Of a stretch of 64,000 bases of DNA, positions 1,141-53,196 are shown in pieces; the stretch's first letter is position 1; the number at the start of each line of letters is the position of its first letter. The DNA lies in assembly GCA_029959085.1 (NCBI GenBank), contig JARWIR010000023.1, positions 8,135,860 to 8,199,859 on the forward strand, given 5' to 3'. The notes beneath the pieces are model-generated. The model was not told the origin of the DNA. It saw nothing but the letters and a program-made list of their open reading frames with translations, and searched no databases. Position numbers and translations under genes: made by a program. The stretch comes from Nemophila menziesii. Taxonomy: Eukaryota; Streptophyta; Magnoliopsida; Boraginales; Hydrophyllaceae.

Positions 1141-1154
1141 AGACCCCCAACTCC
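1141..1154 (-). promoter_or_regulatory. Polypurine tract of the minus-strand gypsy element
   Basis: On the minus strand this reads GGAGTTGGGGGTCT directly before the 3' LTR start TGATGTCTCC. This is the expected place for the plus-strand primer in LTR retrotransposons. An 8+3+8 inverted repeat (CTTTGTCGTCTCGACAAAG, 1158-1176) lies just upstream. The Athila-type element ending at 9795 has the same arrangement. Confidence 0.75.
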
Positions 1155-2550: not shown

Positions 2551-2898
2551 TCAGCCAGCACTAGGCTGGTTACCAATGTTGCGTCCAGATTGGGCATCTT
2601 TTGTGAGGATTGAGTAAATGACGTGTTGCATATTGCTCACCCTAAATAACATATTTTTCAACGTATCCAACTCTTTTGTGACTTTTCCTAAAGTGACAAT
2701 CATCGCATATTGTTTCTCTTCCAACACTTGGATTTTACTTTTCTTTTTCACGTTCTAACTGAATGCCAGGATTGTCAACGTGATGAATGTTCAATTCCTC
2801 CATTTCACGTTCTAACCTTGCTTTTTCTTTTGCTTCCCTGTCTCTCTTGGCTCTAACTAGTTTCTCGGGGTCCTTGAGTAGACACCAAACCTATAAAA
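2551..2898 (-). pseudogene. Degenerate gag N-terminus of gypsy element
   Basis: On the minus strand an open stretch from about 2898 to 2750 encodes DPEKLVRAKRDREAKEKA followed by a charged helix. This resembles the start of Athila/Tat-type Gag proteins. It runs into a stop after EREKEK. A second frame then stays open for 66 codons (2751-2551), encoding a Lys-rich start and a coiled-coil-like stretch. The two pieces probably formed one reading frame before a frameshift. No zinc knuckle, protease or RT follows. The gag assignment rests on the short motif and on the position 3' of the primer-binding site. Confidence 0.55.
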
Positions 2899-2991
2899 CC
2901 TTAGAAGTAGCAAAACAAAGAAAAGCGTAAAACTGAAAAGTAAAAATAACAATTGAAACACTTACTGATAACACCGTGGTCACACGCTAAA

Positions 2992-3010
2992 CTCCCCGGC
3001 AGCGGCACCA
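2992..3010 (-). promoter_or_regulatory. Primer-binding site of gypsy element
   Basis: The minus strand reads TGGTGCCGCTGCCGGGGAG, six bases inside the 5' LTR. It differs slightly from the TGGCGCCGTTGCCGGGGA type known from Athila/Tat elements, which is complementary to a tRNA 3' end. It fixes the orientation of the element as minus. Confidence 0.75.
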
Positions 3011-3016
3011 AAAACT

Positions 3017-4574: not shown

Positions 4575-4575
4575 G

Positions 4576-7236
4576 TTACATGAAGAGATTGCCGAGGTTG
4601 TGGCAGATTTAGAGTCATATGGACAGGGAAGAAGAATGGCCCAAGATTACGAACAAGTCTGAGCCTCAAAGAAGATTAAACCACGAAAGAAACCATCTAT
4701 TATATGTCCTCTAAAACTTGAATAGAAACCTTTACCATCTCATTTTAGGTATATTTATTTGGGAAAAATGGTATATTACCTGTTATTTTTTCCGCTAATT
4801 TGATAGGTCCTCAAGAGGAAAACTTGTTACATGTGCTTCGAGCTAACAAGGAGGCAACTGGGTGGAATATTGCTGACATCAAAGGCATTAGTCCTACCAT
4901 TTTCCAACACAAGATCATTCTTAACAATGAGAAGGCACGATCAATTAAGGGCCAAAGGAGACTTACGCCGATAATGAAAGAAGTAATGAAAAAATATGTT
5001 ATCAAGTCGTTGGATGTTAGGATCATCTTCTACATATTCAACAGGGAATGGGTGAGCCCAGATCAATGTGTTCCAAATAAGGGAGAAATTACTACCGTTC
5101 TTAATGATCAGAATGAGCTCCTACCCTCAAAAACCGTTGTTGGTTGGAGAGTGTGTATGTATTATCGGAGGTTGAACAAGGCTACGAAGATAGATCGCTT
5201 TCCTTTACTGTTCATGGACCAGATGTTAGATAAGCTTGCACGAAGAGAGTACTATTGCTTCCTCAATGGCTATTTAGGTCATAATAAGGTTTGCGTGGAT
5301 CCAACTGATCAGCACAAAACTACATTCACATGTTTGTTTGGCACATTTGCATTTTAAAGGATGCAATTTGGATTGTGCAATTCACCACGTTTCAGCGTTG
5401 TATGATGGCGCTTGGAAGTATTCATGGGTAACTTCTCTGTGTTTGGTGATGACTTTGATAATTGTATCGACAACCTAGAGAAGGTTTGATTCGTTGCAAA
5501 GACACTGATCTTGTGTTAATTTGGAAGAAGTGACATTTCATGGCCTGAGAGGGAATCGTTTTAGGGTACAAGGTTTCGAGTAAGGGTATGGAGGTTGACC
5601 GTGCAAAGGTAGAGGTAATCAAAACCCTTCCACCACCCAATTATGTTAAGGGCGTGAGAAGTTTCTTAGGCCATGCAGGATTTTACTGCCGTTTTATTAA
5701 AGGTTTTTCAAATATTACCAAGCCACAATGTCACTTACTTGAGAAGGAGGTGAAATTTTATTTCAATGATGCATGTCATAAGGCGTTCTTGGCAATTAAA
5801 GAGAAACTTATCTCTACACCAGTAGTGACTCCTCTTGATTGGAGTCCGATCGAAATTATGTGTGATGCAAGCAATCATGCTATTGGTGTCGTGTTTAGTC
5901 TACGCAAGGATGAGGTATTTTATATTGTTTATTATGCGAGTAAGACTTTTACGGGTGCACAATTGAACTATGCCGTAACTGAGAAGGAGTTGTCGGCTGT
6001 GGTATATGTGTTTGATAAATTATGTTCCTATCTTCTTGGGGAAAAAGTAGTTGTATCCACGGACCATTCGGAAATCAAGTATCTCATGGAGAAGAAGGAC
6101 GCAAAGACGCTTCTTATCAGGTGTGTGCTTTTATTGCAATAGTTTGATTTGGAGATTCAAGACCGAAAGGGAAGAGAGAATCAAGTAGATGATCATCTAT
6201 CTCGCCCCAAAGGCTTTAATGTCACCAGTTGAACATAAATGGTCAAGGGGGCATTTCTTGATTAAATCATATTTGTGATAAATACGCAGAATGTTCCATG
6301 GTATGCAAATATTGTTAATCTTATTGTGAGTGGAGTATTTCCCATTAGAAGTAAACCTAAAAATAAGAATAGATTTATGCATCGTTCGGAACAATTATTT
6401 TGGGAGGATCTGCACCTTTTATAGGTATGTAGTGATCAGATGATTCGAATGTGTGTGCTGGAACATGAGATTCACGATATGGTAGCAAGTTGTCACAATT
6501 CGCCATATAGAGGATATTTGAAGAGTGATCGCGGTTTCTTAGGTACTTCAATCTAGTTTCTATTGGACCACTATCCATAAATATTTTCACATATTTGTTA
6601 AGCAATGTAAGCGACGCCAATTCACCAGAAATATTTCGAGGTTTGATGGAATACCGCTCAATAATGTATTGGAAGTTGAGAGATTTTTTGTGTTTGTGGC
6701 ATTGATTTCATGGGGCCCTTTGTTTAATCCCATGGGAATTAATATATTTTACTAGCAGTAGATTATGTATCAAAATATGGACCCCTCTATTAGGCGTAGA
6801 GAAAGTAATGATGAAGTTGAATGAACTTGATGATTTTCGCTGTCATGCTTATTAGAAGGCGAAGCTATACAACGAGATAACCAAGAAATGGCATGATAAG
6901 AAGATTCGAAAGAAGACGTCTGAAGTAGTGCAAAGAGTCCTAAATACAACTCTAAGTTCAGCAACTATCCGGGAAAGTTGAGATCAAAGTGGTCTAGTCC
7001 ATTCATTGTTATTAAATTCTGCCTCATGGAACCATAGAGATTGAACAGGTAACCGAAGAATGCCCCTATATGAGGAATGGTCATCGGTTGAAAATTTATC
7101 ATGAAGACGAAGATAACATCCTTGAGGAGGATCCAAATCCCGGAGAGCTCATTTACCTCGAAGAGGCAAGGTATGAAGCAACGTATCCGACAAGGTAACT
7201 CGTCGAGCTGAACGACGTGAAACAAAAGCCAAATAA
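4576..7236 (+). pseudogene. Athila-type pol relic: RT, RNase H, integrase
   Basis: Reverse transcription and integration polyprotein, now dead. Recognisable in order: the linker before RT (4576-4800, stops at 4660 and 4723 and a one-base loss in an A-run near 4766); RT N-terminal half (4800-5354, with WVSPDQCVPNKG and FTCLFGTFAF, stop at 5355); the catalytic box at 5421-5432, which reads FMGN instead of FMDD; RNase H (about 5780-6205, with MCDASNHAIG, YYASKTF and STDHSEIKYL); integrase zinc region (about 6420-6640, several stops); integrase core start (GIDFMGPF, VDYVSKY, about 6690-6780); then a deletion of most of the core; then the C-terminal part (WHDKKIRKK, then NGHRLKIYHED in shifted frames). 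The family call is firm and the absence of function is certain. Confidence 0.93.
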
Positions 7237-17924: not shown

Positions 17925-18745
17925 TATATAAAAACTCATTTCGGTTGCATTTTTTTCATAAATCAAAAGTATAAATTTAAAGGAAGAGAAAAAGTTCCTT
18001 GGAGCAGCATAAGATTTTCGACATCCCCGTCTTCTCTTAAGAATAGAAGGTATCAAGAACTTTTATCAGCTATGCTTAAATCAGGTACCCCCGGATTCCT
18101 CCCTTCTTTCATATTTCCCACTTATTAAGTTGTAATAACTATGAAATATACAATCCTAAGGGAAAACAAAAGTAGGAGATATTAAGGAAGTGTTACAATT
18201 AAGAAAGAAAGTTTATGCGGTTTACTGGGTGAAACTCTAGATTTCTAGTGCACTGAACAATTTCAGTGTAGATGCTCGTTCTTGCTCTGTTATGGATTTC
18301 CTGACAATTTGGGTTAGTGGATTTGGCTGAAATATTATCACAATAGGGAAGATATCTCATCAATTGCCACCCCACCAATAGCCCTCCCAACAAGTCTTTT
18401 TCTCTATATGTGATATTTATGGATAATTGTTAATGTATTTTATCCATAAATTTAATCATTAAATTAGGATTATAGCTTGAATTTGAGCTAGATTTAAACT
18501 AATTACTCTTTACTTTTACATATTTACTTGATAATTAAAAAATATTAACATAGAGATAATGCTTCTTTATTTGGAAGGGATTAATAATGATTTTTTTTAT
18601 ATTTTGCACACAGGCAAAAACTCATGTCAAGAATAATATCATTACTGAACAAAAAAAACAAAACGAATAAGATCGTTGGCCATGACATTTCAGTTAACCA
18701 TGAAGGTTTAATAATTTCCATGGTAAGATTTAGTTTGTAGTTTAC
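17925..18745 (+). repeat. Local repeat family R, member a
   Basis: A diverged copy of the right half of the 1.5-kb repeats at 26426-29580. The shared order is: TATA box (17935-17941), a leader with AAAAGTTCCTTGGAGCA, the start ATGCTTAAATCAGGTACC (ATG plus a possible splice donor), a Lys-rich coding-like stretch, the block CTGCCACCCCACCAATAG-like near 18365, and a CACACAG acceptor-like site near 18612. Stops and indels exclude an intact protein. It is followed by the channel-gene fragment. Confidence 0.8.

Positions 18746-20760: not shown

Positions 20761-20765
<5 letters not shown>

Positions 20766-20828
<63 letters not shown>
20766..20828. repeat. (AT)n microsatellite, length differs between copies
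   Basis: An AT run 2 bp longer than its counterpart at 53136-53196. This is the first difference between the two large copies. Confidence 0.95.
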
Positions 20829-20831
<3 letters not shown>

Positions 20832-20834
20832 TCA

Positions 20835-20938
20835 ATAATTTGTAATTGTATATTATTTATTGTGATTATTTAATGATTTGTAATTGTATATTATTTATTG
20901 TGATTATTTAATAATTTGTAATTGTATATTATTTATGG
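20835..20938. repeat. 38-bp tandem repeat, ~2.8 copies
   Basis: The core TTTGTAATTGTATATTATTT recurs at a spacing of 38 bp (20839, 20877, 20915), next to the AT microsatellite. Confidence 0.85.
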
Positions 20939-21585
20939 ATTTATTACCATTTACATCTCAAATCTTATATTAATATCTCTTTCCCATATTTACTTATTTA
21001 TTATATTGTCCATAAAAGTCCTAAAACAAGAAAATTATACTTATTATACCCCTCTTTTAATTTTAATTAGTCCTCTGCAAACCACCATTGTCCTCACCTA
21101 CGGCTTCTCCTACAGTTTCGCCACCATCTGAATCCTTTCTCTTCTACGCCTGCTCTACTCTATGTTGTTTATAGAGACTTCTCTCTCCTTTTTTGGTGCT
21201 GATACATATGGATAATGTACAATTTTGTATCAGCCGTAGTACTTAGTACTTCTTGTTGGGATGTGAAATTAGGGTTATTGTTTGTCGTATATCAACTTTT
21301 TTTATAATGAATTTTTACTGGATAATAGTGATGTGGATATGTAATATCTGTGTTTAGCTTAGCTGAACATATGCTGATATTTCTGGCTCTTTGAATGTTT
21401 ATGGGTTATGTTTTGCATAGGTTGTAATGAAGACAAACTTTCCTGGTAAGTCAAACTTTGAAGGCACGGAGTCAACAAGCACTTTCTGCATTTCGTGGGA
21501 TCACAATAGATTCAACTACATATTTTGAATTTTATAGCATAGAAATAAATAAAAAAATGCAGGGACTTGTTTGCAATTTTTTCAA
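20939..21585. other. Spacer, no gene recognised
   Basis: Pyrimidine-rich, then mixed sequence. A short frame at 20922-21131 has no domain. A stretch near 21420-21446 (acceptor-like AG, GTTGTAATGAAGAC..., donor-like GTAAGT) could be a 25-bp micro-exon relic but has no other support. Confidence 0.4.
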
Positions 21586-22155
21586 AATTCTGCAGAAAAA
21601 TTTAGCAAAGAGCCATGTGTTAGGTGAATAAATGGAGGACTAAACGATAATATTTTTGGCCAAATTTTTTCCCAGGAGTAGAACATATATTCTAGTTTTT
21701 GTATGTTGTTTCGGACTAGAAGAACCCGCTCGTTACCATCTCGTTAGATGCCCCGATAGATGTTTCAAATAGCTTAAAAAATAAAAATTCTGCAGAAAAA
21801 CTTAGTATAGTGTCATGTTTGGGTGATTAAATGGAGGACTAAATGATGATATTTTTTGTCATTTTTTTCTAGGAGTAAAACATATATTCTAGTTTCGTAT
21901 GTTGTTTCGGACCAGAGGAACCAGCTAGTTAGATGCCACAATAGATGTCTCAAAAACGCTAAAAAATGAAAATTCTGCAAAAAAGCTTAACATATAGTCA
22001 TTTTTGGGTGATTAAATGGAGGACTAAACGATGATATTTTTAGCCATTTTTTTTTCCGGGAGTAAAGCATATATTCTAGTTTCGCATGTCGTTTCGTACT
22101 AGAGGAACCAGCTCGTTAGATGCCCCAATAGATGTCTCAAAAACACTAAAAAAAA
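21586..22155. repeat. Triple tandem repeat, units 200, 185 and ~185 bp
   Basis: Units begin AATTCTGCAGAAAAA-like at 21586, 21786 and 21971. Each contains AAATGGAGGACTAAA, CATATATTCTAGTTT, TTGTTTCGGACYAGA-like and TTAGATGCC motifs in the same order. Unit 1 carries an extra ~15 bp. They lead straight into the GGTGGGAAAAA block. No protein is encoded. Confidence 0.9.
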
Positions 22156-22455
22156 TTGGTGGAATTTTTCCCACCAAACAATATAAACCCCCAATTATAA
22201 AATGGTGGGATTTTTTCCACCAAACGAAAAACATAAACTTCCAAAACAACATAAACCCCGATTTTTCACACCAAATAACAATATAAAAATTTGGTGAGAA
22301 GTTTGTTCGGTGGGAAAAAATTTGACATGATATTTTTTGGTGGAAAAAATTCTTTGGAAATTTTTTGGTGGGAAAAAAAAAAATTGGCCAGAAAATTTTG
22401 GCCGAAATTTTTTTGGCGGGAAAAATTGATTAGGAATTTTTTTGGTAGGAAAATT
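22150..22455. repeat. Array of TTTGGTGGGAAAAA motifs in both orientations
   Basis: At least eight degenerate copies of GGTGGGAAAAA or its complement TTTTTCCCACC in about 300 bp, including the palindrome GGTGGAATTTTTCCCACC (22158-22175). Such dense, bidirectional short motifs resemble subterminal repeats of CACTA-type DNA transposons. The block opens with CACTAAAAAAAATT (22144). No matching TAGTG end was identified. Confidence 0.6.
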
Positions 22456-23094
22456 CAGTGAGATGAAACTAATTCAATGGTATTATTATCTATTATGTCA
22501 TTTATATTATACATAACTTTTAAGGTCAATATCAACCCCTTCTAGGATGGTATTGGTAATTGCCTCATTATTTAATAATTCGTAATTATTTATTATTTAT
22601 TTTTATTGTAATAATTTTAGTAACAAATTTTCTTTGCATTATAAAATAAGAATTAAATCTACTTTAAAATTTATAGAAGTTGAAGTGATTATATATGAGT
22701 TGTTGAGTTTAAATGATAATTTTAATAAATAATTGATTTTTTTAATAACCAAATATTTAGAAATTGGCTATACATACACTTGATCACTATACAAAGGGTG
22801 CAAAATAATTTTTTTTAGAAATTAGACGTATACTGTGTTTGAAGCAACTCTGATGGTAGAAAAAAGATTTTGTGTAAGGAACAATATAAAGAGGTAAGTA
22901 ATTTTAACATTTCATTAAATGTATAATTTATTAGTTTATTTATATAAAATGAGCTAGTATGAAAGATTTGATATTTAAATATAACAATATATCATTAGGT
23001 TAATTATGTACGGCCTATAATGTAAGTATTTATTATTCATATATGTAAAAATTATATAATATAATTATAATAACAACATAAGAATATTATATCC
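22456..23094. other. Very AT-rich spacer, no gene recognised
   Basis: No open frame of interest, no terminal repeats and no motif beyond simple AT runs. Confidence 0.5.
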
Positions 23095-23483
23095 TTACTC
23101 TTTATTCCCATCTTCGCCCAGGCTAACAAGGCTTTACTTATTCAGGCGGGAGTGGAGCCTCGAAAAGCAATGTTGAGAGGAAGATCCTTGGCCTCTCTTC
23201 ATTCTCTACAGGGTTCTAAATCTTTCTTGAACATAGGTGACAACGAGCGAGGTAGATATGGAAGAGATCAAACATGGGAATAAGAAGCAAGCTCGCCTTC
23301 CTTTTTGATCATTTTGATAGAGGGGGATGAAGAAAGTGGACAAAACAAACTCGAATTTATTGATAGCGGAAAAAAATCATATTAAAAGCGCTCCTAACCC
23401 AACCCTTCCTTCTTAGAGCTGTGTATTGTAAGTGATTAGAACCTTCCCGGAGCGAGCCTCCCATATAGGCAAGTGAAGTTGGT

Positions 23484-23517
23484 GAGTCATATGATGGTTA
23501 ACTATCTCATGCGGGTC
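23484..23517 (+). ncRNA. Degenerate group II intron domain V (nad2 last intron)
   Basis: A 34-nt hairpin-like segment, GAGTCATATGATGG...CATGCGGGTC, about 60 bp before nad2 coding sequence. Length and ends match domain V (normally GAGCC...GGTTC). The AGC catalytic triad reads AGT here, and the partner strand has G for T, so base pairing at the foot is damaged. This is expected for a dead nuclear copy. Confidence 0.7.
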
Positions 23518-23574
23518 GGAGAGGACTCGGTTGTTACTGGTAGTTAGTACCCATATGGTTTCGGGGTGGACCGT

Positions 23575-23772
23575 TTCAATCTTTTTTATTATATACGCTT
23601 AGCGAAAAGAATGTTTTTTGATACACCTAGGACATGGATTCTATATAAACCGATGGATCATGACAAGTCGTTACTACTAGAAATGACTGCCTCTTTCATT
23701 GCTTCATTCTTTCCATATCATTCTCCTTTGTTCTAAGTTACTCATCAAATGGCACTCACTTCATATATTTAA
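23575..23772 (+). pseudogene. nad2: nad2 last-exon pseudogene (mitochondrial NADH dehydrogenase subunit 2)
   Basis: Reads FNLFYYIRLAKRMFFDTPRT, WILYKPMDHDKSLLL and, after an internal TAA (23734-23736), VTHQMALTSYI before the natural stop at 23770. This matches the C-terminus of plant mitochondrial ND2, a proton-pumping subunit of complex I. The internal stop replaces a serine codon (TCA to TAA). One substitution separates the two copies here: T at 23692, G at 56060. Confidence 0.85.
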
Positions 23773-24047
23773 GTTCGATCATTGGTCTGACTGGACGGAA
23801 TATTGGCTAATGAACTCTTTTTCCTCCTATAGTCTTGATCTCCCATGAAAGGAGCAAGCAAGAAAATTAAAGCGTTAGCGCACTCCAGCAAGAAAAGAAG
23901 GACAATATAGGAACGACTTCTAAGATAGAATAACAATAATGAGAATAACCCTGGACTAGACCTATTCTGATTCTTAATTATCCGTCGCTACGCTGTTCCC
24001 AAGGACTAGCAAAATCGAAATAGCGAAATTATTGGGTCATCTCAATG

Positions 24048-24417
24048 GGTTCAGAAACCACAACAATTATTACAAGCTTAGCTAGCGCTATACTTGTAGT
24101 TGGAGATACCACAGTAACATGGCTTTGGGGTGGTTTCTCCATGGACAATGCCACCTAAAATCGTTTTTTTAGTCTTCATCATTTACTCCCCTTTATTTTA
24201 GTAGGTGCCAATCTTTTTCATCTGGCCGCATTACATCAATATGGATCAAATAATCCATTGGGTATACATTCAGAGATGGATGAAATAGCTTCTTACCCTT
24301 ATATTTATGTAAATGATCTAGTAAGTTTGGAAGATTTTGCTATCTTTTTTTCCATTTTTGGTTTTTATGTTCCTAATGTTTTGGGGCATCCCGACAATTA
24401 TATACCTGCTAAACCGA
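24048..24417 (+). pseudogene. cob: cob pseudogene fragment (mitochondrial cytochrome b)
   Basis: An internal segment of plant cytochrome b (complex III): [26 protein letters not shown], a stop at 24156-24158 replacing Leu, FHLAALHQYGSNNPLG, HSEMDEIASYPYIYV and VLGHPDNYIPA. Neither end of the protein is present. Similarity stops after IPAKP near 24417, and the frame ends by chance at 24446. The Ser in IASYPY, where the mitochondrial protein as I remember it has Phe, could be an unedited C, which would suit transfer as DNA. Against the mature protein, copy 1 has changed Val to Ile and Ile to Gly, while copy 2 keeps those but has Leu changed to Met. Confidence 0.92.
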
Positions 24418-24630
24418 TATGGAAAATAACTAATTATAAGGGATAATTTCAATTAATTACAATTATTTCAAATTCTACTCACAGATTAGGAAGGAGGATC
24501 ATACTTTAAAAGATTAATTTTCAATTAAACATTCTGACATATTTACCTTCACAATTATCCTTGATGTCATTTTTATATTATATAATAATTAATATAATAT
24601 TTATTTATTTATTTTAATTATATTTTAAAG

Positions 24631-24830
24631 TCCGACCACCTCTACCATCCACTACCTCCACCACCACCTCTGGCATTTCACCACCGACTACTACCACCAA
24701 CTAATACATTCTCCATCAACCACCACCACAACCATCACCCATAACCCCACTACACAACCACTACCTCATGCATCGACCACTCCCACCCTCATTACTACCA
24801 CCATCTTATGCATCCACCACCACCACCACC
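24631..24830. repeat. CCA/CCACCA-rich low-complexity tract
   Basis: About 200 bp dominated by CCA, ACC and CAT triplets, ending in a pure (CCA)n run. The translated Trp-rich or Val-rich frames across it are artefacts of the repeat. Confidence 0.9.
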
Positions 24831-24869
24831 GATCTTTCTGTAAATTTGACCTCAAAATGTGGGTAACCT

Positions 24870-25375
24870 GATAGTCATTGAAAAAATTGGGAAACTTCTT
24901 AAGATATCGATCCTCTTCTAAAAAATTGAGCAGAGTTTCCACAAGAAAAAGGGAAAAATATGGATACACGACGAAAATTTATAGATGCACTAAAACATTT
25001 CACGACCATGTCAGAGAAATAATCGGTGAAAGTTCATTTTATTTATCGGAAATCCTAAAGACACAGATATCACTTCAAGAAATCAAGTACATGCGACCTT
25101 GTTTGACTACTTGACATCTTTATCTGGTCAAGGAAAAACACTTTGCATGTATTAGAAGATATTTGCGAATGTGGTGACATTTAGGGCGATAATTTTGCTC
25201 CGAGATAACCGATAAAGATATCAAAGATGCAATATTTGGTATTAAGTCCCCATCACCCGACAATTTTATCCAAATTCTTCATCAAGTCTTGGAATGTAGT
25301 AGGTGAAGAGTTGACCATATAAATAAGTAAATTTTTCATATAAGACTTTCTCTTAAAGAAACTTATCTATTATAT
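24870..25375 (+). pseudogene. LINE remnant D: link and RT start
   Basis: Traces of the region before RT (CTKTFHDHVREII, similar to the NTKFFH motif) and of the RT start (EITDKDIKDAIFGIKSPSPD, where functional LINEs have KSPGPDG). These are followed, in another frame, by FFIKSWNVVGEEL. Several frameshifts. Copy 2 has two extra bases near 57634, which place the two RT pieces in one frame (SPSPDNYLSKFFIKSWN), so copy 2 is closer to the ancestor at this site. Confidence 0.7.
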
Positions 25376-26834
25376 CATTAACAGACTTCTCCTTCTCTCC
25401 AATCACAGAGAGTTGTTCTTCCAAAGTCTCATTAACAAAATTATTTACTTCTTCTTTGTCACCTTCACCTTCAGTTACATTAACATCAGGCGTGTTTTGA
25501 TATTTGCAAACAACCTGAAAAGGTAAAAGAAATATACAATCAAATATATGTAAATTAAAGGGGTGGTTTGTCAATCAACTGAAATGTTAAGGGCTAAACT
25601 GTCAAATGACTGTATACCTTTATTGTTTCTTCTTCAACTATCTTTTCTTCCATGCTTTTCCCATAATGTCTTTCACCATTCTTTTCTTCCACGCTTTTCA
25701 TATCAGGCCTTTCATCACAGGTCTTTCCTCCTTCTTCCAAACCAACATTACATACCTTTTTTAGTTCTTTCTCAACAACTACTTTCTCTACAGTCTATGA
25801 AACTAAAGTATTTACTTCGTCGTTCTCACCTTCAGTTACATTAACATCAGTTGTGTTTTGATCTTCACAAACAACCTATAAAGTTAAAATAAATATATAG
25901 TCAAATATATGTAAATTAGGGGTTAAATTGTCAATCAACTAAAATGTTAAGGGCTAAATTGTCAAATGATTGTGTACCTTAACTGTTTCCTCTTCAAATG
26001 TCTTTTCTTACACACTTTTCTCACCATGCCTTTCATCACTCTTTTCTTCTACACTTTTTATATTAGGCCTTTCATCACAGGTTTTAACTACTTCTTTTTT
26101 CCCTTCATTACAGTTCTGGACTTCCATCTCATCCAGGCCATTATTGGTATGAACTTTATCTTCTTCTCGTTGCTGAACTATTTCCTCAACCTTATTTCCA
26201 AGTTAATAACAAAGGCATGAAATAAGGAGTTTGAATTTCGTGGTTTTCATGTATTACTGGTTTACTAACAACAAACATGTCAACAGTTACGTTGTTCTCT
26301 CCAATGCTACACATCTCCATACATTTATCCTTGCAATCTAAACAAACTAGACCATCAGGTAGTTTTTTCCCCAATTTCAAATAGTTTTACTCCAAGTTAC
26401 CTTTTATCCCTAACTTCGAAACAGACTTCTTAAGTACAGGTATACTAAATTTATCATATTCAGAACCATCTACATACTCAATCTTTAAATCATGGTAATT
26501 GCTCATGTCTTCATTAAATATCCCACAAAAGAGAATCCTCAGTGCAAATTTCTTTGTTACACGATCAATTTCGAATAAATTAGTTACCCATTACGTTAGG
26601 AACCAATTAATGGAAAAATAATTATCAAAGATGGATACACTATCAATATGGTAACCAAATCCCGTAAAATATACTCCTATTACTAACTAAATCCCGCCCT
26701 TCACGCGTGATATCTAAAAATGTAATAAATATACTCGTAAACCCTACATTTACAGATTAAAAGATTTTAACTTACAAGCAAAAATTTAGGGGTAGTAAAT
26801 AAACACACTTACTCCATAACGTAAACGGCGCCAT
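25353..26834 (-). pseudogene. Mutator-like transposase N-terminal pseudogene, multi-exon
   Basis: Minus-strand relic. ATG at 26834 opens MAPFTLW with a GTAAGT donor at 26812. A large exon (from about 26570 to 25978) carries FALRILFCGIFNED, EYVDGSEYDKFSIP and LGKKLPDGLVCLD, resembling the N-terminal region of plant MuDR/MULE transposases, then an acidic, Lys/Glu-rich tail. Introns 25876-25977 and 25515-25617 have clean GT...AG ends and near-identical sequence. Exon 3 (25618-25875) and exon 4 (25353-25514) begin alike (VVCEDQNTTDVNVTEGE, VVCKYQNTPDVNVTEGE). Stops: after GNLE, after HGEKSV, and TAG at 25795-25797 in exon 3. The catalytic DDE and zinc-finger parts are absent. The family call rests on the N-terminal pattern. 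Confidence 0.65.
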
Positions 26835-27937
26835 TGATTATATTTTAAGCTAAAGTATATCGGCTTATGCAATCTGGGTTCTTCGTCTTCTTGTTCTTCC
26901 CCAAACCAAACCCTCCCTTGTCTTTTGATTTTGTTTTAATTTTTTTGTTTTGTTTTTTGTGTATATAGGGTAGGAATTTTAGAATTACCTATTTTGCCCT
27001 TTTAAAAATATGGGGTTAAGATAATTAATTAAATAAAACGGATGAAGAATAAAAAAATAATAAAAATGCTCTTAACGGTGATTTTGGACGGAAAACGTTA
27101 GTAACGACCACGAGTCACGAAAAGAAAAGTTAAGGGTATCAAGTAGAATTAGACAATGGGGCAACTTGTTAATCGCATAAAAAATTATGAGCAAACGGGG
27201 TATTTCCTCAAACTTATATAAAACCCTCATTTCGGTTACCTTTTCTTCATAAATCAAAAGTAAGACAAAAAGTTCCTTGGAGCACCGTAAGATATTCGAC
27301 GATCTCCATCGTCTCAGTGATGTTTAAATCAGGTACACTCTCGAATCCTCACTTTTTTCATATTTTCCACTTATTAAGTTGTAATAACGATGAAATATAC
27401 AATCGATCTGCAAAACCTAAGGTAAAAAAAGTAGGAGATATTGAGAAATTGTTACAATTAAGAAAGAAAGTTTATGCGGTTTGCTGGGTAAAACTCTGGA
27501 TTTCTAGTCCATTGAACAATTTCAATGTAGATGCTCGCTATGTTATGGATTTCTCTGTTATGGATTTCCTGCTAAGAGAAATCAGAATTGTATCTTATAC
27601 AATATATTTGCACCATAGGGGACCATACCGGTGAAGAATGAGTTGGGTTAGTTGGGTTAGTGGATTTGGTTGAAACATTATCACAATCCGAAGATATCTC
27701 ATTAACTGCCACCCCACCAATAGTCCTCCCAACCAGTCTTTTTCTCTATATGTGATATTTATGGATAATCATTAATGTATTTTATCCATAAATTTAATCA
27801 TTAAATTGGGATTATAGCTTGAATTTGAGTTAGATTTGAACTAATTACTCTTTACTTTTACATATTTACTTGATAATTAAAAAATATTAACATAGAAATA
27901 ATGCTTATTTATTTGGAAGAGATTAATAGAAATAATG
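26426..27937 (+). repeat. Repeat family R, member b (tandem with member c)
   Basis: A 1512-bp unit repeated directly at 27938. The left third overlaps the MULE 5' end (minus strand). The right part carries a TATA box (27215-27221), a leader, ATG at 27319 followed after 13 nt by a GTAC donor-like site, and a 105-codon open frame (27317-27634) with a basic stretch and LWISSPLNNFNVDAR. That frame has no family I recognise. Unit b lacks the CACACAG block found at the end of units a and c, so the tandem copy is truncated there. Confidence 0.88.
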
Positions 27938-29580
27938 CTTCTTAAGTACAGGTATACTGAATTTGTCATATTCACAACCATCTACAAACTCAATCTTTAA
28001 ATCATGGTAATTGCTCGTGTCTTCATCAAATATCATACAGAAGCGAATCCTCAGTGCAAATTTCTCTGTTAGACGATTAATTTCGAATAAATTAGTTACC
28101 CATTACGTTAGGAAACAATTAATGGAAAAATAATTATCAAATATGGATACACTATCAATGTTGTAACCAAATCCCGTAAAATATACTCCTATTACTAATT
28201 AAATCACGCCCTTCACGCGTGATATCTAAAAATGTAATAAATATACTCGAAAACCCTACATTTACATATTAAAAGATCTTAACTAACAAGCAAAGATTTA
28301 GGGGTAATAAATAAACACACTTACTCCATAACGTAAATGGCGCCATTGATTATCTTTCGAGCTAAAGTACATCGACTTATGCAATCTGGGTTCTTCGTCT
28401 TCTTGTTCTTCCCCAAACCAAACCCTCCCTTGTCTTTTGATTTTGTTTTAATTTTTTTGTTTTGTTTTATGTATATATAGGGTAGGCATTTCAGAATTAC
28501 CTATTTTGCCCTTTTAAAAATATGGGGTTAAGATAATTAATTAAATAAAACGGATTAAGAATAAAAAAATAATAAAAATGCTCTTAACGGTGATTTTGGA
28601 CGGAAAAATGTTAGTAACGACCAAGTGTCACGAAAAGAAATGTTAAAGGGTATCTAGTAGAATTAAACAATGGGGCAACTTGTCAATAGCATTAAAATTT
28701 AGGAGCAAAAGGGGTATTTCCTCAAACTTATATAAAACCCTCATTTCGGTTACCTTTTCTTCATAAATCAAAAGTAAGAGGAAAAGTTCCTTGGAGCACC
28801 TAAGACGATCTCCATCGCCTCAGTGATGTTTAAATCAGGTACACTCTCGAATCCTCACTTTTTTCATATTTTCCACTTATTAAGTTGTAATAACGATGAA
28901 ATATACAATCGATCTGTAAAACCTAATGTAAAAAAAAGTAGGAGATATTGAGGAATTGTTACAATTAAGATAGAAAGTTTATGCGGTTAGCTGGGTAAAA
29001 CTCTGGATTTCTAGTCCATTGAACAATTTCAATGTAGATGCTCGCTCTGTTATGGATTTCTCTGTTATGGATTTCCTGCTAAGAGAAATCAGAATTGTAT
29101 CTTATACAATATATTTTCACCATAGGGGACCATACAGGTGAAGAATGAGTTGGGTTAGTTGGGTTAGTTGATTTGGTTGAAACATTATCACAATCCGAAG
29201 AATCTCATCAACTGCCACCCCACCAATAGCCCTCCCAACCAGTCTTTTTCTCTATATGTGATATTATGGATAATCATAATGTATTTTATCCATAAATTTA
29301 AACATTAAATTGGGATTATAGCTTGAATTTGAGTTGGATTTGAACTAATTACTCTTTACTTTTACATATTTACTTAATAATTAAAAAATATTAACATAGA
29401 AATAATGCTTATTTACTTGGAAGGGATTAATAGTAATTTTTTTATATTTTGCACACAGGCAGAAACTCATGCCAAGAACAATATCATTACTGAACAAAAA
29501 CATTAAACGAATAAGATCATTGGCCGTGACATTTCAGTTAACTATGAAGGTTTAATAATTTTCATGGTAAAATTTAATTG
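27938..29580 (+). repeat. Repeat family R, member c
   Basis: Begins CTTCTTAAGTACAGGTATACT as unit b does and contains a second copy of the MULE 5' end on the minus strand (27938-28350, including GGCGCCAT start context). It has a second TATA box (28729-28735) and ATG/donor-like start, then runs past the end of unit b through a CACACAG acceptor-like site (about 29457) to CATGGTAAAATTTAATT. Small indels break the frame seen in unit b. Confidence 0.88.
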
Positions 29581-29649
29581 ATAGGTCATTTTAAAACAAT
29601 AAATTTCATAAAGGCCTTTTTTGATATTTTCGTAGTATAAAATTCTCTC

Positions 29650-30496
29650 GCTTCTTCATATCGTGTACACAATTTGGGGATTCATTTGCTGTTTCGACAT
29701 TAAAAATCGAGGTTATTAACAAGGTAAATTTGGATTCTTATCTTTTCAATACTAAAATATTGTGCATTGTGTGAATTAGATCTTAATTATTTTATTGAAT
29801 TTGATAAACAGATTTCTTAGCTTCATTTGTTTCGATATTTTATGAGTAATTTCTCTATATTTGATGATAGATCTTGCATTTTACCCCCTTATCTAACGAT
29901 TTATCGAAGCGCATAGGTTATGTAATTAAGAAAAAATAGATTCTGAAATCTTCAAAGCAAACAAATCTGTATTTGATTTTTCATTAATTTTATCGATACT
30001 ATAATCTATGTCAGTAATCGAAACCAAATTTCAATTAAATAGCGTAATACATTCTTCGATCTTCGAATCCATCAAAAGAAAAACTCATATAAAGTGTTAT
30101 TAAGTTAGAAATCTCTGCTGTTTCATTTTTTTTCAATTGTGAAGTTGTATGATTGATTTAAACATGTTAGAGTATTCAAATTATTGCTATTTTGCACTTA
30201 TTTTTGTTTACAGAAACCAAATTTCAGGGAATAATCATTTTGCTACACATCTAGTGGAAAATTCAAGCCAAAGGAACTTTAGAAACAGTTCATCAGCTCC
30301 ATTTATTAAATCTATAAGAAGAAGCTCAAGGTTTTCAAATCAAAAAATGGATAAATCCGATAATTTTGTACCAATTGAAGATTTTACAGTGGATATTTAC
30401 TCCACAGATCAGCAATCTAGTGAGGGTAACTTTTTCCCTTGTGGGAATCTCATTATCACAAAATTACCACCTAATCTTCTCAACATTGCGTTTCAA
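29650..30496 (+). CDS. Candidate two-exon transcript, function unknown
   Basis: A leader-like stretch ends in AACAAG with donor GTAAAT (29724). A 490-bp AT-rich intron ends in TTTGTTTACAG (30213). Exon 2 is 30214-30496 with donor GTAAGT. The exon codes for a Ser/Asn-rich basic segment (SIRRSSRFSNQKMDKSD) followed by CGNLIITKLPPNLLNIAFQ. I recognise no domain, signal peptide or membrane segment. An open frame through the intron starts at 30149, but the splice signals argue that the exon is the real unit. Downstream, a further exon-like stretch (30612-30660) is possible. In copy 2 codon AAA (30353) is TAA. It may be part of a larger transposon gene. Confidence 0.3.
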
Positions 30497-31935
30497 GTAA
30501 GTAAAACTTATTAATTACATTGGGTTTTAAATTATTGTATCTTTTAATAGGATGCATTATTAACATTTTTTATGGGTTTTACTTAGAATAAACTCTGAAG
30601 TTTCCTATCAAGGTTCGCAACATAATTCTACTACCCAAATACGTAAGAGGCCTCAACTTTCCCTAATTGGTACTCTCTCTCTCTCTCATGTATTAATGTG
30701 TATTTATATGGTTGTAATTATATATTAAAGGCAAACTCAATTATCGAATGCATTCGTGTATGTAACCCAACATGTAATTTTCATTTTATTGTTTTAGTTT
30801 AGAAACAATAATTAGTCAGATATGCAACGTCTTATTATGAGTTCAGGGTACACTTAAAATTTTTGTTTGTGGGTGCTATAATATTAAAAGGATTTTAGTG
30901 AGATGGATGAGGTGAAGTAGGGTAGGGATTTTATTTACAATTTAACTATTAAATATAATTTTTATTCAATTTTGGTAAAGTTATCTTGAAAAAGTAATAT
31001 CCTATATATCAAAAAAATTATAATATGTTGTAAAATTATTTGAAAAACTTTATTCTCTAATGGATGAAGAAAAAAAGTTTAACTAATCATTCTAAAAAAT
31101 TATTTTATAAGAGTGAATTGTTTAAAAGGTCCAAAACTAAATTTTCTCATTTTTAATGGGTTTAAGTTTTTTTCCTTCCGCAAATGGTCAAATTTTTAAT
31201 GGGATATCTTTGTTTTTATAATAAGTTACGATTTTATTTAATGGTTTATACAAATTTTTTAATGGGTCACGTGTATTATTTTTTATAGATTAAACATATT
31301 TCTTAAAGGTTATGTGTAATAAATATTGTAAACTTTATTAGCTAACAATATTCTTGTAAAGACATTTGAATCAATAACCCATAAATACTTACATAACATA
31401 ATTTGGACTCATGAACAAACCATATATCACGACGAAGGGATCACTTGGTGTGATTAACAATAGGTAAATAGCCGATAAAAAGATATATAACAAGCAACTA
31501 TGATATATATAGATATATATGTGTGTATATATAATATATATCAACGTCAGTAAACAACCTGGATTACTGATAATTTATACAGGGATTTGTTGACCAAAAC
31601 AATAATATTTCATAGTATTTAAAATTTATACATTACCATAACATCAGCGTGAAAATCTAATAAATGGTCAAGTAAAAAATAGCAAAGGAAATGTCATCAA
31701 TAACGTGAGTAAAGATGAATAATTATGTGTTACTTGAATATACTTAACTAAATCATGTTTGATGTTTTTTTCTTGGTTTCTTATGTTTTTAATGTAAATA
31801 AATTAATTATATGATAAATTGCACCATTTATCTTTCAGTACGTGGGTGGTCCAGGCTTGCTTGCACGCACAACGAATAATCACACACGGATATAATTGCC
31901 TCCACATGCATATTCCCAATTAAATTCAGAACTAG
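30497..31935. other. AT-rich spacer, no gene recognised
   Basis: Holds a CT microsatellite (about 30671-30687), several TTTTTAATGGG-type short repeats (31160-31260) and an AT-rich tract (31500-31540). No open frame with a protein signature. It ends at the GTTAC target duplication of the gypsy element. Confidence 0.5.
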
Positions 31936-31940
31936 GTTAC
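31936..31940. repeat. Left target-site duplication GTTAC
   Basis: GTTAC directly before the left LTR, matched by GTTAC at 36945-36949. Confidence 0.75.
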
Positions 31941-33510
31941 TAGTGTCTCCTAACACCCCCATATAGGAAGGATACGTACCGCAAGTGTACAGATCGTCCA
32001 AGTAATATTCGGTAAACGGGAATTCGATCTCAAGAACGGATTGGATATGACTTTAGATGTTATGTAATAAGTTTTTGTAGTTGTTATATGATGCGGAAAA
32101 CAAAATAGATAAATATTTGTTTTGATTTTATTTAAGTATTAAAGTGCAAATAATGTAAAATACTAAATTAACTAATGCAAATAAATGAGATGCAAGTAAA
32201 TAAAATACGAGTAGATGCAAGGATGAGAAATAGTACTTGAGTTTCGCAAGGATTTCGCCTAAATCCATTCAATAAATGTTCTTGTTTAAGAGTCGAATTG
32301 GTAATTAATAATAGTCTAGATTCGAGTTTCTCCTAACCCCCGTTAGGGTGGACTTGGGAGCTATCCTAGGGTATTAAAAACCCCGAGGGTGATTATAAGC
32401 TACCTTTGAATGTTCAAGTGTTTAACCCAATTGACTATAAGATTAACTAAGTCCGCAAGGATCAATAATTATATCTTACATCTATTACTTAGTTCAGTTA
32501 TTAAACCCCCCTCCCGTCAAGGTGATCATTACGCCTCTATAATGAATAGCTTAATTACTAATTCCTATTTTTGATTCATGACTTGAAAAACAGTATATAA
32601 ATTCACGATAATAGAAAATACTAATTTACCCAATTCAAATAAAATCTTTCAATCCAAAATTCAAAAACATTAATTAAATAAATTGGGGCTTAGCCCATTA
32701 AAGCGATTCTCAATCACAAATGAGTTTAGCTCATAATTGAAATTAAAACTAAAGAAATAAAATAAAAGGAACTCGTGTTTTATAGAAAGAAAAATAAATA
32801 AAACCTAATTAAGAGGTTGTTGCATTGACTGTTGGTGGAAGAATTGCTTCTCCAGCTTCAGTTTTTTTTTCTCTAGCTTCTGGCTTTTCTCTCTAACACT
32901 CTGCCTTTTGTAAAATGAATTGTGTGTAAAAATAAAGTCAAAAGGCCTATATATACTAATAAAATCGGACTTGGGCTTATTTTAAATGAATTAATGAAAT
33001 ATTAAATTACCCAAGTCCACTTTTCAAGTCCAAATCCTGTAACTGGTGTACACCATCCACTAAAATGGCTGTAACTTTCTCAATTTAACTTCGAATTGAC
33101 TCATTGAACTTGCTATTTTTTTTGTAACTCAATAAGGAACGAATCTTATTTACAACGCAATGGCTGAATCCATGTTTAAGTGGCTCGAAATCAGCAATTA
33201 TCATCAGCCTTCCAGATTTGTAGCTCCAGTTTGTCCACTCTTTGGGATATTTCTTCTCGCCTTCGACTTTTTTACACGATCTAAGACTCCTGTTCTTGAT
33301 TTCTGTCCTTGCTAGTATTAAAATCCTACAAACTTTACACTAAAACAAACCATTTAACGTGTAAAAGTGTAATAAATTAAAAATACTAAAATCCAAGGAG
33401 GAAAAATGATATATAACAATTTAATCCTAAAAGTATATCAAATTAGTCAAATAATCACCTAAAATGATGTCTCCTAAGGGAATATAATTAGAACAAACGA
33501 GGAGACATCA
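31941..33510 (-). mobile_element. 3' LTR (full length) of gypsy element
   Basis: 1570 bp. On the element's strand it starts TGATGTCTCC and ends GGAGACACTA, the last bases being a change from CCA in the partner LTR. Bases 32371-33510 are identical to 1-1140 as far as checked. Confidence 0.85.
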
Positions 33511-33524
33511 AGACCCCCAACTCC
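33511..33524 (-). promoter_or_regulatory. Polypurine tract (copy 2)
   Basis: Same sequence as 1141-1154. The associated inverted repeat is at 33528-33546. Confidence 0.75.
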
Positions 33525-34920
33525 AACCTTTGTCGTCTCGACAAAGTAAACTTACAAACAAAGGTCTAAGGTGAATGCAGAGATGCAAAATCTAGTAAAT
33601 ACACCCAAAGCAATACTTAAAATAAATCTCATACAACAAACATTAGGAATTAATATACACATACACTTATCATGCAAAATCAAACACAAACAATATCAAT
33701 CTTAAAATTAACTTCACAATGCTAGAAGGTTACACTTGTACTTATATCAATATGATAGCTATAGGGTGTTCATTGATCCTCACTCGCTTTGAATGCTCCA
33801 CTTAGTATACTCCCTATTAGCTTAATTATAAACTCACTATGCACCTAAGAATCACGAGGACATTATGGTTTTAGCGTAGGCTTAGGGACAATCTGGTATG
33901 TATATTTGGTAAATTTGAGGTGAGATTTTGGCTCTCTCCTCACTTACCATCAACAACTGTCCACAAGTTTGAGTTTACACTCGAATAATGTTCTCACTCA
34001 ACCCATTTGATGCACTAATTTAGCATCCTCAAGTTAACCCAATATAGACTAAGATGATTTCCAAAAATTTCCACTTTGCCGGGTAAGTTAATCTTTCTTT
34101 TTCTTTTTCAAATTCTTTTTTTGTACAGTAGCTAACCAGGTTCCCGGTTTGTGATAATCGGGTTCCCGGTCCTTACTGTATTGACTTCTTCTTTTTTTTT
34201 TTTTTTAAATCTCGGCAAAGGGTTACAAATAATAATATCATCTGATATTGTTCCTTAATGTGTAAACACAAATAGTTACCTCCCAATATAATTTCCCAAA
34301 GATGGACCCGCCACCCCAAACTCAAGCTTGAGACAGGTCTCAGGATCGTGATTCAAGTGCGGGTCATTAGGAAAGACCTAATAAACTAAAGGGATATGGG
34401 CTTATATCGTGACGACAAAAGAAAAGGCTTTAAGGCTCAAAATTGGGCTAAGAAGGATTAAATTAATACATGGGATAGAAGGCTAAAAGTGTCTAAAATT
34501 GCTTAACAAAGAACTGCCCCTATCATTTTCCTAGTTACATAGCTCGCCCCTAATTCATACCTAAGTGGGTTCTCTACTAATTTGGATCTCACGTTCCGCA
34601 AACCAAACATTTTCCTTAAGTACAAGTTTACTTCTTTTGAATTGTTCATTAATTCTTCCTATCAATTAACTATGTTTGCATGCAATTAAAGTGTGTTTTC
34701 TACTAACTCCTAAAGTCCACTATTTACTATCATTGATTCATCAAAAGTATGCTTAAGTAAGTAAACTTATTGAAAGCAATTAAAACACATAACACGTAAA
34801 ATGGGATGAGGCAACGAACCCTACCCCAAACTCAAAAATGAGTCATGTCCTCACGACTCGAAAAGACTCAAAGTAAGTAAACTAATATACACTAAATGAG
34901 AAAGAGTTAGAAAACGTATC

Positions 34921-35268
34921 TCAGCCAGCACTAGGCTGGTTACCAATGTTGCGTCCAGATTGGGCATCTTTTGTGAGGATTGAGTAAATGACGTGTTGCA
35001 TATTGCTCACCCTAAATAACATATTTTTCAACGTATCCAACTCTTTTGTGACTTTTCCTAAAGTGACAATCATCGCATATTGTTTCTCTTCCAACACTTG
35101 GATTTTACTTTTCTTTTTCACGTTCTAACTGAATGCCAGGATTGTCAACGTGATGAATGTTCAATTCCTCCATTTCACGTTCTAACCTTGCTTTTTCTTT
35201 TGCTTCCCTGTCTCTCTTGGCTCTAACTAGTTTCTCGGGGTCCTTGAGTAGACACCAAACCTATAAAA
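34921..35268 (-). pseudogene. Degenerate gag N-terminus (copy 2)
   Basis: Same two open pieces and the same frameshift as at 2551-2898. Confidence 0.55.
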
Positions 35269-35361
35269 CCTTAGAAGTAGCAAAACAAAGAAAAGCGTAA
35301 AACTGAAAAGTAAAAATAACAATTGAAACACTTACTGATAACACCGTGGTCACACGCTAAA

Positions 35362-35380
35362 CTCCCCGGCAGCGGCACCA
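35362..35380 (-). promoter_or_regulatory. Primer-binding site (copy 2)
   Basis: TGGTGCCGCTGCCGGGGAG on the minus strand, six bases inside the 5' LTR. Confidence 0.75.
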
Positions 35381-35386
35381 AAAACT

Positions 35387-36944
35387 TGGTGTCTCCTTAT
35401 GTGTTCTAAAATAACACACCTAAAAAAGGCAAGACACGTACCGCAAGTGTATGGATCGTCCAAATAATATCCGGTGAACAGGATTTCGATCTCAAAGACG
35501 GATTAGGAATGACTTTCGATGTTATGTAGTATGTGCGATTAATTGTTATATGAAGCGAAAAATAAATGATATAAAGATTTGTTTTGGTTTTTGATTATGA
35601 ACCAAGATGGAATTAAAATAAAATACTAAATTAACTAATGCAAATAAATAAGACGCAAGTAAATAGAAATGAATAGACTCAAATATTTAAACGCAGTACT
35701 TGAGTTTCGCAAGGGTTTCACTTAAATCTATTAAATCAATGTTTCTATTTAAGGGATGAATCAGAAATTAAGTACTAGTCGGGATTCTTTAGTCTCCTAA
35801 CCCCCGTGAGGGTGGACTTAGGAGCTATTCTTAGGTGTTACGAATCCCGTTAGTGCGATCATAATCCACCTTCGAATGGTCAGGTATTCTACCCAATTTG
35901 CTATAAGGTAAACTAAGGCTGCCAAGGTCAATAATTTCTACCTTACGTCTATTATTTAGTTCGGTAATTAAACCCTCCGTCAAGGCGATCACTTCCCCAC
36001 CAAAGTGAATAGCTTAGTTACTAATTCCTATATTTGATTCATGACTTCAAAGAGAGTATTTAATTGCAAAATAATAGTCAATACGAAATTACCCAATTTA
36101 ATTTAAGCTAATCAATCCCAAATTCAAAAATATAAATTCAATATACTTAGGTTCAACACATTAATGCGATTTTCAAGCACAAGTTATGTTTAGCTCATAC
36201 TAATAAAAATAACTGAATTAAAATAAAAGAAGTTCATACTGAATTACAGAAATAAGAAAAACCTAATTAAAGGGTTGATAATTGCTGTTGTTGGAAGAAG
36301 GAATTCTCTCTGACTTCTCCTAAGCGTTGCTTCTTCTCTAATATGAATTGTGTTTGTAAAAACTGAAGTTAAAAGCCTTTTTGTAGTGGGCAAATGGATT
36401 GGGCTATTAAAAATAAGGATTACGTTAATTAGAATAAAAGCCCAATCCATTTAATGAATTCCCGTAACTGGTTACTAGTTGTTACTGAAACAGTTGTAAC
36501 TTTTGCGTCTGGACTCGGAATCAGTTGGTTCAACTTGAAAAATCTTCCTGACTTCAAGCTCTATCTACCTCATTTTATGCTCCAAGAATGACTAAGTGGC
36601 TAAGATGCTCAAAAACAGTGATTTCTGACAGCATTCCAGATTTCATTCTCCATTAATTAATTCTTCGAATCCATTATTCTCGCCTTTGACTTCAACGCTT
36701 AATCAAAGACTTTATTTCTTGTTTCTTCTCCTTGTCTTGATACTCCAAAAAATCATAAACCTAAGAACTTTACACTAAAAATAAGCGAATTAACGCATAA
36801 AAGCTCTAAAACACAAATAATCCAAATTCAAGGAAAGAAATCGTAATATGACTAAATAAGCTTAAAAGTCTAGCAAATAAGTCAAATAATCACTAATTTG
36901 ATGTCTCATAAGGGAATATAATTAGAACAATAAGGGAGACATCA
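35387..36944 (-). mobile_element. 5' LTR of gypsy element (copy 2)
   Basis: Same as 3017-4574. The right target duplication GTTAC follows at 36945-36949. Confidence 0.85.
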
Positions 36945-36945
36945 G

Positions 36946-39606
36946 TTACATGAAGAGATTGCCGAGGTTGTGGCAGATTTAGAGTCATATGGACAGGGAA
37001 GAAGAATGGCCCAAGATTACGAACAAGTCTGAGCCTCAAAGAAGATTAAACCACGAAAGAAACCATCTATTATATGTCCTCTAAAACTTGAATAGAAACC
37101 TTTACCATCTCATTTTAGGTATATTTATTTGGGAAAAATGGTATATTACCTGTTATTTTTTCCGCTAATTTGATAGGTCCTCAAGAGGAAAACTTGTTAC
37201 ATGTGCTTCGAGCTAACAAGGAGGCAACTGGGTGGAATATTGCTGACATCAAAGGCATTAGTCCTACCATTTTCCAACACAAGATCATTCTTAACAATGA
37301 GAAGGCACGATCAATTAAGGGCCAAAGGAGACTTACGCCGATAATGAAAGAAGTAATGAAAAAATATGTTATCAAGTCGTTGGATGTTAGGATCATCTTC
37401 TACATATTCAACAGGGAATGGGTGAGCCCAGATCAATGTGTTCCAAATAAGGGAGAAATTACTACCGTTCTTAATGATCAGAATGAGCTCCTACCCTCAA
37501 AAACCGTTGTTGGTTGGAGAGTGTGTATGTATTATCGGAGGTTGAACAAGGCTACGAAGATAGATCGCTTTCCTTTACTGTTCATGGACCAGATGTTAGA
37601 TAAGCTTGCACGAAGAGAGTACTATTGCTTCCTCAATGGCTATTTAGGTCATAATAAGGTTTGCGTGGATCCAACTGATCAGCACAAAACTACATTCACA
37701 TGTTTGTTTGGCACATTTGCATTTTAAAGGATGCAATTTGGATTGTGCAATTCACCACGTTTCAGCGTTGTATGATGGCGCTTGGAAGTATTCATGGGTA
37801 ACTTCTCTGTGTTTGGTGATGACTTTGATAATTGTATCGACAACCTAGAGAAGGTTTGATTCGTTGCAAAGACACTGATCTTGTGTTAATTTGGAAGAAG
37901 TGACATTTCATGGCCTGAGAGGGAATCGTTTTAGGGTACAAGGTTTCGAGTAAGGGTATGGAGGTTGACCGTGCAAAGGTAGAGGTAATCAAAACCCTTC
38001 CACCACCCAATTATGTTAAGGGCGTGAGAAGTTTCTTAGGCCATGCAGGATTTTACTGCCGTTTTATTAAAGGTTTTTCAAATATTACCAAGCCACAATG
38101 TCACTTACTTGAGAAGGAGGTGAAATTTTATTTCAATGATGCATGTCATAAGGCGTTCTTGGCAATTAAAGAGAAACTTATCTCTACACCAGTAGTGACT
38201 CCTCTTGATTGGAGTCCGATCGAAATTATGTGTGATGCAAGCAATCATGCTATTGGTGTCGTGTTTAGTCTACGCAAGGATGAGGTATTTTATATTGTTT
38301 ATTATGCGAGTAAGACTTTTACGGGTGCACAATTGAACTATGCCGTAACTGAGAAGGAGTTGTCGGCTGTGGTATATGTGTTTGATAAATTATGTTCCTA
38401 TCTTCTTGGGGAAAAAGTAGTTGTATCCACGGACCATTCGGAAATCAAGTATCTCATGGAGAAGAAGGACGCAAAGACGCTTCTTATCAGGTGTGTGCTT
38501 TTATTGCAATAGTTTGATTTGGAGATTCAAGACCGAAAGGGAAGAGAGAATCAAGTAGATGATCATCTATCTCGCCCCAAAGGCTTTAATGTCACCAGTT
38601 GAACATAAATGGTCAAGGGGGCATTTCTTGATTAAATCATATTTGTGATAAATACGCAGAATGTTCCATGGTATGCAAATATTGTTAATCTTATTGTGAG
38701 TGGAGTATTTCCCATTAGAAGTAAACCTAAAAATAAGAATAGATTTATGCATCGTTCGGAACAATTATTTTGGGAGGATCTGCACCTTTTATAGGTATGT
38801 AGTGATCAGATGATTCGAATGTGTGTGCTGGAACATGAGATTCACGATATGGTAGCAAGTTGTCACAATTCGCCATATAGAGGATATTTGAAGAGTGATC
38901 GCGGTTTCTTAGGTACTTCAATCTAGTTTCTATTGGACCACTATCCATAAATATTTTCACATATTTGTTAAGCAATGTAAGCGACGCCAATTCACCAGAA
39001 ATATTTCGAGGTTTGATGGAATACCGCTCAATAATGTATTGGAAGTTGAGAGATTTTTTGTGTTTGTGGCATTGATTTCATGGGGCCCTTTGTTTAATCC
39101 CATGGGAATTAATATATTTTACTAGCAGTAGATTATGTATCAAAATATGGACCCCTCTATTAGGCGTAGAGAAAGTAATGATGAAGTTGAATGAACTTGA
39201 TGATTTTCGCTGTCATGCTTATTAGAAGGCGAAGCTATACAACGAGATAACCAAGAAATGGCATGATAAGAAGATTCGAAAGAAGACGTCTGAAGTAGTG
39301 CAAAGAGTCCTAAATACAACTCTAAGTTCAGCAACTATCCGGGAAAGTTGAGATCAAAGTGGTCTAGTCCATTCATTGTTATTAAATTCTGCCTCATGGA
39401 ACCATAGAGATTGAACAGGTAACCGAAGAATGCCCCTATATGAGGAATGGTCATCGGTTGAAAATTTATCATGAAGACGAAGATAACATCCTTGAGGAGG
39501 ATCCAAATCCCGGAGAGCTCATTTACCTCGAAGAGGCAAGGTATGAAGCAACGTATCCGACAAGGTAACTCGTCGAGCTGAACGACGTGAAACAAAAGCC
39601 AAATAA
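36946..39606 (+). pseudogene. Athila-type pol relic (copy 2)
   Basis: All stops, the A-run frameshift near 37136, the FMGN box (37791-37802) and the integrase deletion near 39152 are shared with copy 1, so they predate the duplication. Confidence 0.93.

Positions 39607-53130: not shown

Positions 53131-53135
<5 letters not shown>

Positions 53136-53196
<61 letters not shown>
53136..53196. repeat. (AT)n microsatellite, 2 bp shorter than copy 1
   Basis: Counterpart of 20766-20828. The shift between copies becomes 32368 after it. Confidence 0.95.

Follow-up and report, generated by a model that had tools for sequence, protein, structure and literature searches.

A hybrid unit in a 26-33-kb tandem repeat of Nemophila menziesii and its probable origin by unequal exchange between neighbours

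An identity boundary in a tandem array

The window analysed here is a 64-kb stretch of the Nemophila menziesii genome (C140:8135860-8199859, on a contig of ~21.6 Mb in a genome of 1.517 Gb and 361 contigs). It consists of one repeat unit of 32,370 bases, unit A, and most of the following copy, unit B (period 32370); the start point of a unit is arbitrary and was set at the start of the window. Seven units, designated Z, U0, A, B, C, D and E, lie head to tail and in one orientation at C140:8075825-8285741, within the 240 kb that we read (C140:8060000-8299999). Their sizes are 27.4, 32.7, 32.4, 32.4, 31.8, 27.2 and 26.1 kb, respectively, and Z, D and E are each short of ~5-6 kb up to unit position 22.7 kb. 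Tandem units of at least 1 kb define a macrosatellite, and with units of 26-33 kb the array belongs to this class. There is no N in the window, nor in the 240 kb. An array of only two units was considered and rejected: a 64-kb window can lie wholly within such an array at 741 positions, as against 33111 for an array of three units, and the genome showed a longer array.

The original prediction, made from the letters of the window, held that A and B differ up to ~23.69 kb by nothing but a 2-bp length change in an AT repeat, that dozens of substitutions and indels of 1, 2, 39, 6 and 19 bp follow to the right of 23692, and that a single duplication with uniform mutation is insufficient to explain this contrast. 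We aligned window positions 1-31643 with 32371-64000, and each of these statements was borne out. Positions 1-23691 contain 0 substitutions and one 2-bp indel (the TA repeat at 20766), and positions 23692-31643 contain 52 substitutions and the same five indels. When B was followed beyond the window, the whole unit showed 66 substitutions and 6 indels. Were the 52 substitutions uniformly spread, the first 23691 bases would be free of them with a probability of ~10^-31, and a model with two rates is preferred to one with a single rate by a likelihood-ratio statistic of 144; the differences are not spread evenly over the unit. The boundary is abrupt, with ~1 difference per 150 bases from 23692 on. 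Within the divergent part, the positions of the substitutions are compatible with a uniform spread (Kolmogorov-Smirnov p 0.66), and one difference-free gap of 1016 bp is borderline (p 0.04).

Make-up and origin of unit A

Comparison of A with both of its neighbours in the assembly revealed a hybrid: the part left of the boundary is that of B, and the part right of it is that of U0 (Table 1). Substitutions separate U0, A and B at 466 sites, and a single switch fits 465 of them, the exception being position 23953. No substitution is private to A, either against U0 and B or against all six other units, each of which carries 33-221 private substitutions of its own. The locus thus combines the features that we took to characterise unequal crossover, namely at least three homologous units head to tail, one switch at a homologous position between both neighbours, and the absence of own mutations in the hybrid.

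Table 1 Features of the window (positions are those of the window unless stated otherwise)
Feature	Position	Strand	Basis and remarks
Repeat unit A (hybrid)	1-32370 (C140:8135860-8168229)		Period, genome position, 0 private substitutions
Left part of A	1-23691		Equals left B (0 substitutions, one 2-bp microsatellite change); 399 substituted sites against U0
Right part of A	23692-32370		Equals right U0, without indels and with 1 substitution (23953) in 8679; against B, 66 substituted sites and 6 indels
Repeat unit B	32371-64000, on to C140:8200584 past the window		Alignment
TA microsatellite	20762-20828 in A, 53132-53196 in B		A one dinucleotide longer; sole A-B difference in the left part
Strict exchange interval	23530-24263		Columns of the seven-unit alignment
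Mitochondria-derived insert	23100-24443	+	Approximate limits from base composition (G+C step)
Partial cytochrome b reading frame	24159-24419	+	Pfam; best match to cytochrome b chains in solved structures, E 2.1e-42 over 87 residues
Internal tandem pair, ~1.5 kb	26426-27933 and 27938-29437 (26426-29437)		94.6% alike; predates the A/B split
Long terminal repeat (LTR) retrotransposon, ~5 kb	31941-36944	-	Flanks GTTAC (31936-31940, 36945-36949); unbroken across the unit limit 32370/32371

We consider the boundary to mark, with a probability of about 0.8, the place where two neighbours in a large plant macrosatellite, U0 and B, recently underwent a single unequal homologous exchange. The array would have paired one unit out of register with a second copy of itself, most likely on the sister chromatid or on a near-identical homologue. 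A strand would then have followed B to ~23.69 kb and passed at the corresponding position into U0 of the partner, and the array would have gained one 32.37-kb unit, giving U0, then A composed of B-left and U0-right, then B. This arrangement is exactly what a single unequal crossover between U0 and B predicts. An unequal exchange involving copies that differ in age had been among the options named in the original prediction, and the composition of A, with B on the left, U0 on the right, one switch and no private substitutions, speaks for it.

The location of the switch can be bounded by shared bases in the seven-unit alignment. At 23529 A and B have a base in common that is absent in the five other units, and at 24264 the same holds for A and U0; between them lies the strict exchange interval. 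Within this interval, U0 alone deviates at 23685 and 23953, and B alone deviates at 23692 and 24258 and has an insertion at 23912. An exchange at 23686-23691 would be the most parsimonious, needing one later mutation (23953 in U0), and an exchange at 23954-24257 would need two (23692 and 23912 in B). The strict interval falls wholly inside the mitochondria-derived insert, a position to which, with one event, no meaning can be assigned. In the duplicated segment (U0-right with A-left compared with A-right with B-left), 1 substitution was counted in 32,368 compared bases (summed by hand), together with one TA unit. At a mutation rate of 7e-9 per site and generation, a hand calculation gives an age of about 2,000 generations for the exchange, with an upper limit near 12,000. 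The partners were likely sisters or near-identical homologues, because diverged homologues would leave more differences.

Two points weigh against an exchange between U0 and B. At 23953 U0 alone deviates from the six other units, and the exchange needs either one post-event mutation in U0 or a small repair patch to explain this site. Moreover, the same layout would arise if the assembler had walked through U0-right and B-left twice, so that unit A was made in silico. Near-identical tandem copies of 32 kb are hard to assemble, and the two walks of such a loop would differ at only two places in ~32.4 kb. These two places, the clean base 23953 and the TA repeat unit at 20766, nevertheless separate the copies of the segment, whereas a node used twice would yield identical copies. 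By our reasoning, the backward jump from B-left to U0-right would also require reads showing that join, and the lack of a gap between the copies was counted against the loop. Such an artefact is therefore improbable, and we infer that the assembly is correct at this place. Long-tract copy repair between sisters, by long-tract gene conversion or break-induced copying, would leave the same hybrid and no reciprocal product. Tracts of >15 kb able to amplify tandem repeats have been described (PMC12400953). Crossover and copy repair are indistinguishable on the product alone, and we regard copy repair as a variant of the unequal-exchange reading whose odds overlap with it; taken by itself it is unlikely, and a crossover is the form of the event that we infer.

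Two further options of the original prediction fared poorly. Conversion of a pre-existing unit A, which had been proposed for the left three quarters, would likewise yield two identities if B had overwritten the left three quarters and U0 the right quarter. This would take two long conversions meeting at one place and leaving nothing of the old unit, since there are 0 private substitutions in 32.37 kb; the rest of A has no mutations of its own, and we consider this history very improbable. Equally hard to credit is a mixing of haplotypes, with a left part that is homozygous and a right part that is heterozygous set in tandem. Divergences of 0.66-0.76% are indeed usual for heterozygosity. However, A-right equals U0-right on the same contig, and A differs from B there as U0 does, so that the right-hand divergence is that between neighbours on one contig; from the alignment, the 0.76% between A and B appears to be the older U0-B divergence and not a difference between haplotypes. 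We further searched the genome with a 2.5-kb probe spanning the boundary, which gave 1553 candidate places, of which 40 were scored, making the counts lower bounds. No full-length place outside U0, A and B exceeded 98% (identities rounded) among these 40, one partial place reached 99% (C140:8031394, probe 988-2501), and no second haplotype of the U0-A-B trio was seen among them.

Older layers and content of the array

From 12.3 kb to the end of the unit the divergence between U0 and B is 0.66%, and to the left of that it is 2-3.6%. With Z, C, D and E as the reference for polarisation, the 66 right-hand differences split evenly: 33 were assigned to B and 29 to U0/A, with 4 left without assignment. 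The divergent right quarter of A and B accordingly belongs to an older layer, and an earlier exchange of like kind may underlie the break at 12.3-13.2 kb. We tentatively suggest, at somewhat less than even odds, that the array is a readable layered record in which every switch of divergence between neighbours dates one exchange, that of A being the newest, with an age on the scale of a thousand generations. If so, a single genome would suffice to read the rate, extent and position of exchanges between 30-kb repeats in a plant.

Other comparisons bear on the direction of change. Polarisation by the internal repeats gave 8 derived states in A and 10 in B. A reading based on the cytochrome b alignment, by which 24360 and 24361 had both changed in A, was rejected: the other units show 24360 to have changed in B, and the protein reading was wrong at one of four sites. 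The 39-bp difference (window 26028-26066 against 58399) lies at a 12-base direct repeat; B lacks the segment and the six other units have it, so it was lost in B, probably between the two short repeats. Transitions make up 20 of the 52 A-B substitutions in the window, as compared with a pool of three older repeat pairs in which 148 of 296 substitutions are transitions (Fisher p 0.13), from which we make no claim; the pool leaves out two pairs (26/34, and 36/72, the B copy of a pooled pair), and with both added p becomes 0.08.

By our count, the 40 probe places that were scored comprise 23 on C140, 8 on C201, 5 on C317 and 4 on C239. The scored places in C140 7.85-8.28 Mb are spaced by ~26-32 kb, with one 63-kb step, and the spacing is wider elsewhere. 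A macrosatellite with units of 26-33 kb and the mitochondria-derived insert was observed on at least four contigs (C140:7.54-10.32 Mb, C201, C239 and C317). To the left of the window on C140, long (~32 kb) and short (~28 kb) units seem to alternate. A broken unit of ~11 kb in total precedes Z (C140:8064842-8075824), running through unit positions 1-6777 and re-entering at 28638. At the other end, E stops early at unit position 30515 and the next unit begins at 3119 (C140:8285741-8285755).

The content of the unit looks like plant nuclear DNA. A Pfam scan of 20 open pieces gave matches above the family cut-off for element and cytochrome pieces, including in the window a Ty3-type RNase H piece and a piece of a long interspersed nuclear element (LINE). 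The structure chains closest to the cytochrome b frame are, we presume, plant mitochondrial. Organism-named relatives of the Ty3 piece among 120 listed are flowering plants, 45-63% alike, and others reach 65%; a relative search with the LINE piece returned no match, and the Rfam and transfer RNA scans were both empty. The two LTRs of the retrotransposon are 70.9% alike (Kimura two-parameter distance 0.37). The old element was probably present before the array grew, because its LTRs are far more diverged than the units. It also carries what we take to be primer-site and purine-tract features. No flanking repeats were found with the element end placed at 31944, and ends 3 bases further out gave the matching GTTAC; this motif was found by looking, which is weaker than a preset test, the chance of a 5-base match being ~1/1000 per placement. 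For the internal 1.5-kb tandem pair, which has a further relative at window 18066-18732, we saw no conversion between the repeats: 0 sites separate copy A from copy B, 61 separate repeat 1 from repeat 2, and 1 has more than two bases.

Relation to known tandem repeats

Macrosatellite units are given a range of up to a few kb (PMC8122249), and the 26-33 kb found here are larger. Among the matches listed in the open-licence literature, we found none describing a plant macrosatellite with units this large, which leaves absence unproven. The human RNU2 array resembles the Nemophila array in being a tandem macrosatellite, and its number of units changes frequently (PMC4132748). It differs in its smaller unit (6.1 kb), and its rate, 5e-3 per generation, was estimated by tracing arrays in families (PMC4132748), whereas a single event is read from the sequence in the present case. 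Hidden tandem duplication with uneven identity between the copies is known from Arabidopsis SEC10, and such pairs are easily misassembled (PMC3984084). False duplications of assemblies similarly place near-identical neighbours in one contig (PMC9516828). Unlike these, the present copies have no gap between them, two markers separate the segments, and the pattern is hybrid and not of the haplotype type. Identity boundaries such as that between A and B need not be haplotype artefacts, and caution is warranted in reading them so.

Units of the Drosophila histone cluster are far smaller, and carry histone genes, whereas the units described here are from a plant and hold decayed transposons and organelle DNA. 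The two systems are alike in that similarity within a strain is highest between neighbouring units and that sister chromatid exchange is invoked (PMC12400953). Unequal exchange is the standard account of the growth of tandem arrays and of the likeness of their units. In the Smith model, an exchange out of register yields one extra unit, a hybrid of both neighbours (PMC8122249), and unit A of the Nemophila array is such a hybrid. Single events are hard to see in short, alike units. In contrast to the usual Smith-model case, the unit here measures ~32 kb and one event is readable with hundreds of markers: with long units differing by 2-3%, its position can be narrowed to hundreds of bases (perhaps six), and it can be seen to make a whole unit. 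The process is old knowledge; what is unusual is the length of the unit and the clarity of the single event.
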